NCBI GenBank assembly: GCA_030630935.1
Contig: DAOVMD010000100.1
Coordinates: 1 to 8,854, forward strand
Reading direction: 5' to 3'
DNA from: Candidatus Mcinerneyibacteriota bacterium
GTDB taxonomy: Bacteria > AUK180 > JAQVHJ01
Length of the DNA stretch: 8,854 nt
Within the stretch, counting starts at the first letter, position 1; the number at the start of each line of letters is the position of its first letter. Position numbers and translations under genes: made by a program. The notes under the pieces were generated by a model. The model worked only from the letters and a program-made list of their open reading frames with translations. It ran no database searches and had not been told where the DNA came from. Below, one piece after another: positions 339 to 3,615 of this stretch.

Positions 339-2606
339 CTACGAATTGAATATTCCAAAGACTGCTTGACCCAATGAAATACCACCATCATTACATGGCA
401 CATTATCATGTATTATAACATTAAAATTACAAGATTTCAACTTAATAATTAATTTTTTTAAAAAAATCATATTCTGAAATACTCCACCTGAAAGAGCAAC
501 TTGGTTAATATTTGAATAATTCCTTGCTTCTAAAATACCCTTTGCAAAAATCTCAACTATAGTATTATGGAATTTTGATGAGATTCTATTCTTACTCATT
601 CCATTAAGAAGATCATTAACAACACCAATTATAATCTGCTCAATTAATAATAACTGAGTCCCCACATCCTTTTTTAAATCAAAAGGATACTGCCCGGTAT
701 CATCCTCATCTGCAATCATTTCAAGTTCAATCGCGGCTTGACCTTCATAATTGATTTTTCGTTTCACCCCGATTATTGATGAGACTCCGTCAAATAACCT
801 GCCAAGACTCGAGGTCTTAACCGTATTTAATTCCTTGCTTATCATGTTCTTTATAATTTTAAATTCACTTTTTAAGTCAGGGAAAAGTTTTGTAAGGATC
901 ACATCATCTGAAATTCCCGACTTCAATAAAAGTGAAATCGCAGTCTTGTACGGATTAATAATCGCAGAATCTCCTCCGGGTAAATCAAAATAATCAATAT
1001 GCCCAAATCTCTCAAAACCATTATAATCGGCAATTAAAATCTCCCCACCCCAGATATTCCCATCATCTCCATAACCCGTACCGTCACATGCAACTCCGAT
1101 AACCTTTTCATTGGAAAGTTTATTATCTGCCATGCAGGAAAGAACATGAGCATAATGATGCTGAACTGCGAGCTTATTTTTTATAGGGGAGTCCAATGCA
1201 TATTGTGTTGAAAGATACTCAGGATGCAGATCCGAAACTATTAATTCAGGGGTAATTGAAAATAATCTCTTGAAATGTTCTATCCCGTCTTCAAATGATT
1301 TATAAGTCTCGAGATTCTCAAGGTCTCCAATATGATGTGAAATAAAAGCGTAATTATTCAGGGTTAAACAAAAGGTGTTTTTTAACATTCCTCCACAACC
1401 CAGAACCGAAATATCCGATTGCCCTGGTAAAATAATTGGAAATGGAACATAACCCCTTGCCCGGCGAAGCGGATATTCTTTCCCATTAAAAATACGTGAA
1501 ACCGAATCATCACAACGCATAAAAATCTCCCGATTATGAAGAAGAAAATAATCCGCAATATCTTTTAACCGGTGTTTGGCTTCATTATCTAAAAAGGAAA
1601 TCGGCTCATCAGAAATATTTCCGCTTGTCATTACAAGGGGACCATTGAACTCTGTAAGAAGAATATAGTGAAGCGGTGTATAGGGAAGCATTACACCTAA
1701 ATATTTCTGCTTGGGAGCAACGGTCTCAGGTAATTTCGTACCGGGTTTTTTCTTCAAAAGAACAATCGGTCGAACATTTCCAGTCAACAAATTCTCTTCT
1801 TCCCGGTTAACTTCACAGAATTCTTTTACCCGGGTAATAGAAGGAAACATAACTGCAAAAGGCTTTTCTTCCCGATACTTTCTGCTGCGAAGTTTACTAA
1901 CCGCAGCATCACACAATGCATCACACGCAAGATGATATCCGCCTAACCCCTTGATCGCAATTACCTTTTCTGATTGCAATAACTGAATCGTTTCATTTAT
2001 AATATTATCTGTGTGCTTTTCAGTTCCATCTGAACTTAACAAAGTTAATCCCGGACCACAATCAAAACAAGCATCTGGCTGGGCATGAAATCGTCTGTCA
2101 CCCGGATCTTCATATTCTGCTTGACAAATATTACACATCTTGAAGGGAAGCATCGTCGTGTTTCCACGGTCATAAGGGATATCTTTTATTATTGTAAATC
2201 TAGGACCGCAGTTTGTACAATTAATAAAAGGATAAAAATATCTTCTGTCTTGTTTATTAAATAACTCAGCTCGGCAGTCATTACAGATCGCAAGATCAGG
2301 CGAGATTAAAACAAATTGACCAGGTTCTCTTTTTGAATGCTTAATTATAAAACCCTCTTCATTCTTAATTATGGAAATATCGATATTGTCTAATGTTTCA
2401 ATTACTGAAATTGATGGCTTTTTTATTCTGAGATCTTTTCTGAATTTTTCCAGGTCAGCAACTGAACCTTGAACTTCAACCTCAACTCCACTCGAATCAT
2501 TAAAAACCCAACCGGTAAAAGCAAATGACTTCGCAAGGTTATATATGAATGGCCGAAAACCTACGCCCTGGACTATGCCGGTAATTCGAATTCTATTTCG
2601 CTTCAC
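339..2606 (-). CDS. hypF: Carbamoyltransferase HypF, [NiFe] hydrogenase maturation
   Basis: HypF uses carbamoyl phosphate and ATP to make carbamoyl-adenylate and passes the carbamoyl group to the C-terminal cysteine of HypE, the source of the cyanide ligands of [NiFe] hydrogenases; it is cytosolic. All family domains are present in order (755 aa, numbered from the GTG): acylphosphatase, residues 3-90, with VQGVGFRPF (R18) and N36; two zinc fingers with CX2C pairs at 108/111, 130/133, 158/161 and 180/183; a YrdC-like domain, about 205-380, with KGLGGYHLACDA; and a Kae1-like domain with metal motif HHYAH (H483, H484, H487), CDGTGYGDDGNIWGGE (D508) and LSGGVFQN near 705. Length is normal and nothing looks broken. 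I chose GTG 2606 over an in-frame TTG at 2633 because that TTG overlaps the -10 box of a strong promoter, while AGGAG (2611-2615) precedes the GTG. No other hyp gene is in the window. The stop is TAG. Confidence 0.96.
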   Translation of the reverse strand: MKRNRIRITGIVQGVGFRPFIYNLAKSFAFTGWVFNDSSGVEVEVQGSVADLEKFRKDLRIKKPSISVIETLDNIDISIIKNEEGFIIKHSKREPGQFVLISPDLAICNDCRAELFNKQDRRYFYPFINCTNCGPRFTIIKDIPYDRGNTTMLPFKMCNICQAEYEDPGDRRFHAQPDACFDCGPGLTLLSSDGTEKHTDNIINETIQLLQSEKVIAIKGLGGYHLACDALCDAAVSKLRSRKYREEKPFAVMFPSITRVKEFCEVNREEENLLTGNVRPIVLLKKKPGTKLPETVAPKQKYLGVMLPYTPLHYILLTEFNGPLVMTSGNISDEPISFLDNEAKHRLKDIADYFLLHNREIFMRCDDSVSRIFNGKEYPLRRARGYVPFPIILPGQSDISVLGCGGMLKNTFCLTLNNYAFISHHIGDLENLETYKSFEDGIEHFKRLFSITPELIVSDLHPEYLSTQYALDSPIKNKLAVQHHYAHVLSCMADNKLSNEKVIGVACDGTGYGDDGNIWGGEILIADYNGFERFGHIDYFDLPGGDSAIINPYKTAISLLLKSGISDDVILTKLFPDLKSEFKIIKNMISKELNTVKTSSLGRLFDGVSSIIGVKRKINYEGQAAIELEMIADEDDTGQYPFDLKKDVGTQLLLIEQIIIGVVNDLLNGMSKNRISSKFHNTIVEIFAKGILEARNYSNINQVALSGGVFQNMIFLKKLIIKLKSCNFNVIIHDNVPCNDGGISLGQAVFGIFNS

Positions 2607-2745: not shown

Positions 2746-2772
2746 GTAGGGGTTAACGGCGTTAACCCTGAC
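2746..2772. repeat. GTAGGGG palindrome, copy 1
   Basis: GTAGGGGTTAAC (2746-2757) faces GTTAACCCTGAC (2761-2772) across a GGC loop. It forms a 12-position stem with one G-T pair at position 4 and one A-G mismatch at position 3. Its ends and architecture match a second palindrome at 3588-3615, but the five core bases differ. Confidence 0.7.
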
Positions 2773-2856
2773 CGAGTTTTATAATCCTCCCGATTGAATT
2801 TAAAAAAGGAACAATGGATCCCCCGCCCGCCTTTCTATTTTTTTCTTTGTTTTTTA

Positions 2857-2882
2857 GTTCTCGTCCGTTCTCATCAGTTCTC
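2857..2882. repeat. Three GTTCTC words at 10-base period
   Basis: GTTCTC occurs at 2857-2862, 2867-2872 and 2877-2882, exactly one helical turn apart. The reverse complement GAGAAC occurs on the plus strand at 2707-2712 and 2714-2719 inside the heptamer array, so the same word is present in both orientations. The longer word CAGAGAAC is also shared: plus strand 2705-2712 and 2712-2719, minus strand 2884-2877. Confidence 0.6.
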
Positions 2883-2966
2883 TGTTAAAATAAAAAAGTT
2901 TGAGCGAAGCGAGTTATATTTAATTTTCTCTTTTTTTATTTTGTTTTTCCTTCATGTTCGGAATTT

Positions 2967-2987
2967 ACCCCGAATTTACTTCGGGGT
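2967..2987. repeat. Short hairpin, ACCCCGAA / TTCGGGGT
   Basis: An 8-bp perfect stem (2967-2974 with 2980-2987) encloses the loop TTTAC. No T run follows it on the minus strand, so it is not a convincing terminator. It lies about 110 bases past the end of the hemerythrin-like gene. Confidence 0.55.
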
Positions 2988-3063
2988 GGTTAAAAATGCA
3001 TTCAATCGAACCCTTAAGCATCACTCTACCTAAACAAATGCTTTGTATTCTCTAAAGCAAAAA

Positions 3064-3098
3064 CATTATTCATTGTTCATTGTTCATTCTTAATTCTT
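3064..3098. repeat. Heptamer tandem repeat, CATTGTT type, five units
   Basis: Five consecutive 7-mers: CATTATT, CATTGTT, CATTGTT, CATTCTT, AATTCTT. The last unit overlaps the TAA stop codon (3099-3097) of the hemerythrin-like gene, so the array begins right at the end of that gene. Confidence 0.75.
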
Positions 3099-3501
3099 AC
3101 TTATTTAATATGTACTTCTGGAATTCCCGATAAAGAATGTTCTCCTCGCGCCTGATCAGAACACCCATATCTGCAAGTATCCGACCAAATGCTTCCGCAA
3201 AATCTAATGAATAATCTCCGCATTTATTATTGTTAAAAAAACTGAGGATATCTTTTTTCATGTCTTGCATTTGGGGTACAAAAACCTCAAGTGTAAGCTT
3301 AATGTTATCATTATTCTTTGAAGCTTCTTTTAAAATAGTATATACCTTCTCTTCTTTTTCCATGTGATCTAAAAATAAGTCCTTAAAAGAAAAAAGTAAG
3401 GTTTGACCTTCTTCTGTTGTCACCCCAAGCTTCATTGTCTTCTTTAATATACCAAGCATCTCCTTGTGTTCTCTCTTAAGCTCATCAATTAAACCTTCCA
3501 A
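3097..3501 (-). CDS. Hemerythrin-like (HHE) four-helix protein with an incomplete metal site
   Basis: A 134-aa, all-helical, highly charged cytosolic protein without signal peptide. It resembles bacterial hemerythrin-like HHE proteins, which bind a di-iron centre and sense or carry O2 or NO. Visible landmarks: REHKEM with H12 in helix 1, DHMEKEE with H46 and E50 in helix 2, and the typical family ending IRREENILYREF (117-127) in helix 4. Full hemerythrins use five histidines plus two acids; here the second half has no histidine, so a classical di-iron site cannot form, although E119/E120 could act as ligands. C94 is the only cysteine. The start is TTG 3501, supported by AAAGGA 7 bases upstream and a near-consensus promoter at 3551-3579; no ATG fits that spacing in frame. 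It is a single-gene unit between two repeat-bearing gaps. Fold moderately sure; function unknown. Confidence 0.78.
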   Translation of the reverse strand: MEGLIDELKREHKEMLGILKKTMKLGVTTEEGQTLLFSFKDLFLDHMEKEEKVYTILKEASKNNDNIKLTLEVFVPQMQDMKKDILSFFNNNKCGDYSLDFAEAFGRILADMGVLIRREENILYREFQKYILNK

Positions 3502-3518
3502 AAATCAATCCTTTCCAG

Positions 3519-3539
3519 GGGATATTATATTTTTATCCC
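3519..3539. promoter_or_regulatory. Inverted repeat in the leader of the hemerythrin-like gene, possible operator
   Basis: GGGATA (3519-3524) and TATCCC (3534-3539) flank a 9-base AT-only spacer. The element lies just downstream of the predicted transcription start (about 3542-3549) and upstream of the AAAGGA ribosome binding site. A repressor site here would block initiation; in RNA the same bases could form a weak 6-bp hairpin. Confidence 0.4.
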
Positions 3540-3550
3540 TCTAGAAGATT

Positions 3551-3579
3551 ATTATACCCTATTTTATGCAAAAAGTCAA
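3551..3579 (-). promoter_or_regulatory. Sigma70-type promoter of the hemerythrin-like gene
   Basis: TTGACT (3579-3574) and TATAAT (3556-3551) on the minus strand are separated by exactly 17 bases, the same hexamers and spacing as the hypF promoter. The leader to the TTG start would be about 40-48 bases. A second TATAAT at 3529-3524 has no matching -35. Confidence 0.8.
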
Positions 3580-3587
3580 GTTTCAGA

Positions 3588-3615
3588 GTAGGGGCACGGT
3601 ATGCCGTGCCCTTAC
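3588..3615. repeat. GTAGGGG palindrome, copy 2
   Basis: GTAGGGGCACGG (3588-3599) pairs over its full 12 positions with CCGTGCCCTTAC (3604-3615) across a TATG loop; the only non-Watson-Crick pair is G-T at position 4, as in copy 1. It lies 8 bases upstream of the -35 box of the hemerythrin-like promoter and about 210 bases beyond the exporter genes. Confidence 0.75.

Follow-up and report, generated by a model that had tools for sequence, protein, structure and literature searches.

The window considered here is the whole 8,854-nucleotide stretch of the Candidatus Mcinerneyibacteriota contig DAOVMD010000100.1, in which two short palindromes that begin with GTAGGGG lie on either side of a hemerythrin-like gene. 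The features are as follows, the two palindromes having been read directly.

2672-2740 (wider span 2672-2745), plus strand: a separate repeat directly upstream of copy 1, an inverted repeat made of the hairpin CTACTCAAGCAAC-TCT-GTTGCTTGAGTAG and then AGAGCAGAGAACAGAGAACAG..GTCGTTCTATAGA.
2746-2772, plus strand: REP copy 1, 27 nt, GTAGGGGTTAACGGCGTTAACCCTGAC, with a GTAG foot, a GGG-TTAAC / GTTAA-CCC stem, a GGC loop and a TGAC 3' end.
2773-2792, plus strand: tail of copy 1, cgagttttataatcctcccg, a diverged version of the tail CATAAGAACTTAATCCTCCCG that is conserved 3' of the TGAC-ended copies, as judged from a tail listing and column counts across copies.
3097-3501, minus strand: hemerythrin-like gene between both copies, an ORF of 134 aa that matches Pfam PF01814 at E 1.5e-6.
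3588-3615, plus strand: REP copy 2, 28 nt, GTAGGGGCACGGTATGCCGTGCCCTTAC, near the double-foot type, with a GGG-CACGG / CCGTG-CCC stem, a TATG loop and a TTAC 3' end, and without the conserved tail.

Both palindromes are thus present where an earlier note on this DNA had placed them. The 12-position stem that the note gave to each applies to copy 2 (12 of 12 paired) and has to be corrected for copy 1, where 11 of 12 positions pair and position 3 is an A.G mismatch. In the predicted fold of copy 1 the foot stays unpaired, and both copies fold better than shuffled sequence (DNA folding z-scores of -2.7 for copy 1 and -5.8 for copy 2). The 27-mer of copy 1 recurs identically elsewhere in the source genome, at C13:5377, and the core of copy 2 is also found in double-foot copies of contigs C72, C188 and C210, a type that copy 2 resembles. 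The hemerythrin-like gene does lie between the copies, as described, but it shows no sign of belonging to the repeat, and its placement there looks incidental. Taken alone, the window makes a weak case, as GTAGGGG occurs in it twice, only in these hairpins, where 0.36 occurrences are expected, and at least two occurrences are seen in 14 of 200 shuffles, so that the sharing of this word is mildly unusual.

The repeat directly upstream of copy 1 is itself dispersed, with 47 places in ~0.52 Mb of sampled contigs. It is a hairpin with an apex like AAC-TCT-GTT, after which come runs such as AGAGCAGAGAACAGAGAACAG and GTCGTTTTATAGATA; here the apex stays constant and the arms vary, opposite to the GTAGGGG family. 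Its 3' part was found 30 times in these contigs; GTAGGGG lies at most 14 nt downstream in seven of the 30 and is absent there in the other 23, a split that fits insertion of the REP beside some copies of this second repeat. The split is only suggestive, since REP-bearing and REP-free copies aligned too poorly for the insertion boundaries to be drawn.

The source genome (3.16 Mb in 471 contigs, 80% complete) provides a far larger sample of the palindrome. A strict GTAGGGG-footed palindrome pattern gave 69 strand matches versus 0 for the reversed pattern, and the loose pattern GTAGGGG-N12..15-CCC gave 132 versus 2, leaving ~125 sites once symmetric sites matched on both strands were merged; copy 1 is one of the 132. 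The earlier note, which proposed a dispersed palindromic family with conserved ends, would have been refuted by a mere two copies genome-wide or by the lack of an excess, and the counts uphold the proposal. The palindromes measure 27-28 nt, and all copies that the pattern found have a GTAG foot, in keeping with the size and foot of REPs, although the foot was required by the search pattern and its constancy is therefore not independent evidence. From 60 contigs and the window, the contigs mostly picked for carrying the repeat, 75 good copies were collected, representing 37 distinct sequences and 22 distinct core-arm pairs. None of the 75 falls within an ORF of 120 aa or longer in a sample that is 77% coding, which shows the intergenic bias that the earlier note proposed to test. 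At a cut-off of at least 80 aa, 12 copies lie inside short ORFs, which are probably spurious because no copies remain inside ORFs at the higher cut-off. High copy number and extragenic placement, both marks of GTAG-type REPs, are thus found here. The exact TTAA-type core pattern had 0 matches in named genomes, where records of the source genome may be absent. Genome-wide, the palindromes are confirmed as a dispersed family, real and far beyond chance.

The cores of these copies vary and remain self-complementary. Core arms are paired at 89% of positions in the 75 copies, versus 54% with the right arms shuffled, and 0 of 10,000 shuffles reach the observed value, which is raised to some extent by a sample gathered with a test favouring paired stems. 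A pair-count test on 23 copies, drawn from strict-pattern matches without a paired-core requirement, gave a covariation of 0.258 versus 0.095, a level that none of 500 shuffles reached; the signal is lost when the partner is slid. Kinship among copies inflates such tests, whereas the two-sided changes seen at five pairs are direct. The stem is kept by complementary changes, as in GTAG-type REPs, and the earlier suggestion of a covarying core selected for hairpin shape is supported. Many TGAC copies carry one core mismatch; in the Escherichia coli REP system, a stem bulge is needed (PMC8266576).

The 3' end is mostly TGAC, and otherwise chiefly TTAC, TGAT or CTAC, with the conserved tail CATAAGAACTTAATCCTCCCG present on most TGAC copies. 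Some copies form inverted pairs (REPINs) of ~118 nt, with GTAG outside and most often 70-71 nt between the stems, joined by a conserved linker that ends in the same tail as the TGAC copies. For the opposite inverted orientation, with GTAG inside, no pair was found within 250 nt among the sampled copies. Of four pairs that were folded, three form one long hairpin (z -4.7 to -10.5) and the fourth forms separate hairpins; the paired copies are thus two inverted REPs with a spacer, able to form a long hairpin, as REPINs are. The repeat unit of the earlier note, a single hairpin, stands as a hairpin family and is refined in that some copies are inverted pairs and many single copies look like halves of them. 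Both window copies are singles, neither being in an inverted pair, and copy 1 looks like the TGAC half of one because its tail is a diverged form of the tail that ends the inverted-pair linker. Of 60 copies, 49 have an A immediately before GTAG and 34 have a C one base further out, and the first two bases past the 3' foot are usually C, then A. These flanking bases would be compatible with a CA cutting site, and are only suggestive of one.

One group-4-like RAYT was detected in the source genome, at C326:206-838(-), by means of a protein query from the distant genome G015. Its motifs, NHLH, FWQRNYYDH and YIRDNP, together with a long variable stretch, correspond to those of RAYT group 4 / subclass 2.4 (NH[IFV]H, WQ, YIxNNP and a long stretch between HUH and Y); its L and D depart from the published consensus, which aligned relatives fit. 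The best solved-structure match of the RAYT profile is TnpAREP 4ER8 (E 2e-7). Upstream of the gene are GTAGGGG hairpins at 941(+) and 1111-1137(-), inverted and with CTTCC left arms, and another GTAGGGG repeat lies just downstream, at ~174(-). The HUH transposase gene that the earlier note suggested looking for beside the same hairpin therefore exists, and cognate REPs adjoin it as in group 4 / subclass 2.4. By its motifs and REP type, the C326 protein resembles RAYT group 4 / TnpAREP subclass 2.4. A Pfam search of the source genome with Y1_Tnp missed this gene and found three other Y1 genes, which have no GTAGGGG hairpins nearby. Many core types coexist with the one detected RAYT, and a second RAYT may be missed in a genome that is 80% complete. 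As a separate observation, an IS200-type transposase at L027:740-1207 (G000:C247) has a C-terminus that continues into a short peptide repeat around LQRYRSYRVTKISPLQSCKDIAPTELQRYRSYGA; a repeat may have grown into the end of the gene.

The association extends to other genomes. Eighty RAYT loci in named genomes, found by protein profile alone and covering about twenty phyla as judged from record titles, were searched for the hairpin. A GTAGGGG-footed hairpin is present in 55 of the 80 loci, and a GT[AG]GGG hairpin in 61, versus 0 or 1 of 80 for each of seven scrambled feet. In the DNA examined, 19 loci are without a GT[AG]GGG hairpin, of which 12 have other GT[AG]G hairpins. GTAGGGG hairpins are thus widely associated with group-4-like RAYTs. 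For instance, in Nitrosomonas halophila (L195), a 28-mer inside the RAYT match is identical to three double-foot copies of the source genome, and its core arms are those of window copy 2. In the case of G015, GTAGGGG hairpins lie upstream of the RAYT and two more lie in frame between HUH and Y. The nearest relative, G001, of the same family, has 0 strict-pattern matches despite a similar RAYT; on either side of its RAYT (L143, G001:C179), at 1-480 and 1210-1710, a related palindrome whose ends are altered is repeated both in tandem and in inverted orientation. At L143 this palindrome reads, for example, GTACAGCGAACGGTGTTCGCCCGTATC, beside a few GTAGGGGCGAACGGC forms.

Other GTAG-footed hairpins were also encountered. 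The family GTAGAGACGTGCCATGGCACGTCT has 39 matches in the source genome versus 0 reversed (for instance, C152:5610-5633 and C187:5714-5737), and similar GTAGAGACG hairpins occur in RAYT loci of Bacteroidales and Falkowbacteria (L170, L192). Further hairpins of the forms GTAGCCTGGGGCTTCAGCCCTAGG, GTAGGCCATGTCTTTAGACATGG and GTAGCCCCGCAATTTATTGCGGGG were seen at L061:5813, L077:1729, L064:4410, L045 and L069:17732, some of them following a same-strand GTAGGGG copy at a distance of ~95-125 nt.

The window palindromes are very probably REPs of the GTAG superfamily, of the type paired with group-4 RAYTs (TnpAREP subclass 2.4), and spread by a RAYT. In published work, RAYTs bind the REP as a folded single strand, make contact with its GTAG and cut next to that, at CT or CA (PMC8266576). 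By analogy, the GGG-N5/N5-CCC stem would fold behind the GTAG foot in single-stranded DNA, and the RAYT, an HUH-Y1 single-strand endonuclease, would recognise the foot and stem, cut beside them and join the ends elsewhere. Copies would spread in this manner through intergenic DNA, partly as ~118 nt REPINs that decay to single hairpins, and the cores would drift yet remain self-complementary because the hairpin, and not its sequence, must form. Recognition, cutting and dispersal by the C326 RAYT would be the simplest reading, given the published biochemistry of other RAYTs and the family to which the elements belong. Counting against this reading are the many core types beside a single detected RAYT, the lack of strict-pattern matches in G001 despite its similar RAYT, and the 19 RAYT loci without a GT[AG]GGG hairpin. 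Of the movement by a REP-associated transposase proposed in the earlier note, a resident RAYT is found and the assignment is refined to a group 4 / subclass 2.4 likeness, while transposition itself we infer from family membership.

An improbable alternative is that the hairpins owe their upkeep and multiplication not to a transposase but to a role in ending transcription or in stabilising mRNA 3' ends. The copies are indeed intergenic hairpins, and published REPs are able to affect transcript ends, but no T run follows either window copy on the strand of the flanking genes (all minus), and the orientations of flanking genes occur as often as expected from the intergenic DNA that each accounts for, convergent spacers not being in excess. 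Selection for termination would not call for a common foot, tail and linker, nor for a location in and around the RAYT genes of many phyla. Somewhat less probable still is that the palindromes are non-mobile sites, bound by a nucleoid or replication protein, which selection has produced repeatedly. Fixed-end palindromes are common as protein sites, and REPs elsewhere bind host proteins; however, widely varied but complementary cores suit recognition of a hairpin better than binding of a duplex, and the conserved linkers and tails point to copying. A chance likeness of two palindromes in an AT-rich window, for which the 14 window shuffles with two GTAGGGG words might be cited, has a negligible probability, being refuted by the genome counts (132 versus 2) and by a core complementarity that no shuffle reached.

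The repeat resembles elements already described. Subclass 2.4 includes long REPs with a stem starting in three G-C pairs, double-foot REPs, and REPs inside the RAYT gene (Quentin et al. 2018, PMC6006769). The present family is like the REPs of subclass 2.4 / RAYT group 4 in its GTAG foot, three-G-C stem base, and canonical long and double-foot forms, and in having REPs both beside the RAYT gene and within it, in the HUH-to-Y stretch, in many phyla (PMC6006769). Unlike those REPs, the source-genome copies mostly end in TGAC and not CTAC and carry a conserved tail, and many cores accompany one detected RAYT (PMC6006769); these differences are matters of detail. Di Nocera et al. (2013, PMC3733652) likewise describe GTAG REPs whose stems take alternative but complementary forms, which make inverted dimers and are linked to RAYTs. 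Compared by their published descriptions, these GTAG-tagged families share with the present one a terminal GTAG, stem bases that alternate but remain complementary, intergenic placement, and homo- and heterodimers with GTAG outside (HH) and conserved spacers (PMC3733652). The REPINs of Pseudomonas (Bertels and Rainey 2011, PMC3116915), which go with different RAYT groups and differ in foot and core, are comparable in outline only, in their inverted hairpin pairs with a spacer, singles beside pairs and a resident RAYT. A literature search for GTAGGGG itself found no relevant paper. The repeat is thus a previously unrecorded example of a known, ordinary class, the REP elements, and is filed there because the family fits the published GTAG and subclass 2.4 descriptions.

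A more tentative idea, possible though on balance doubtful, is that one RAYT serves at least 10 unrelated cores, reading only the GTAGGGG foot and the stem base, and that template switching, inside one hairpin or from one half of a pair to the other, restores the match between core arms. If this were true, the pairs with different cores (C71, C66) and the copies with mixed arms, such as CTTCC/GGACG, would be intermediates.

With this family, REP/RAYT systems extend to a bacterial lineage that has been sampled little. The seven-base foot GTAGGGG recurs with group-4-like RAYTs in about twenty phyla while the cores differ, and this constancy of the foot beside differing cores makes the RAYT group well suited to asking what a RAYT reads and how the arms of a hairpin change together.
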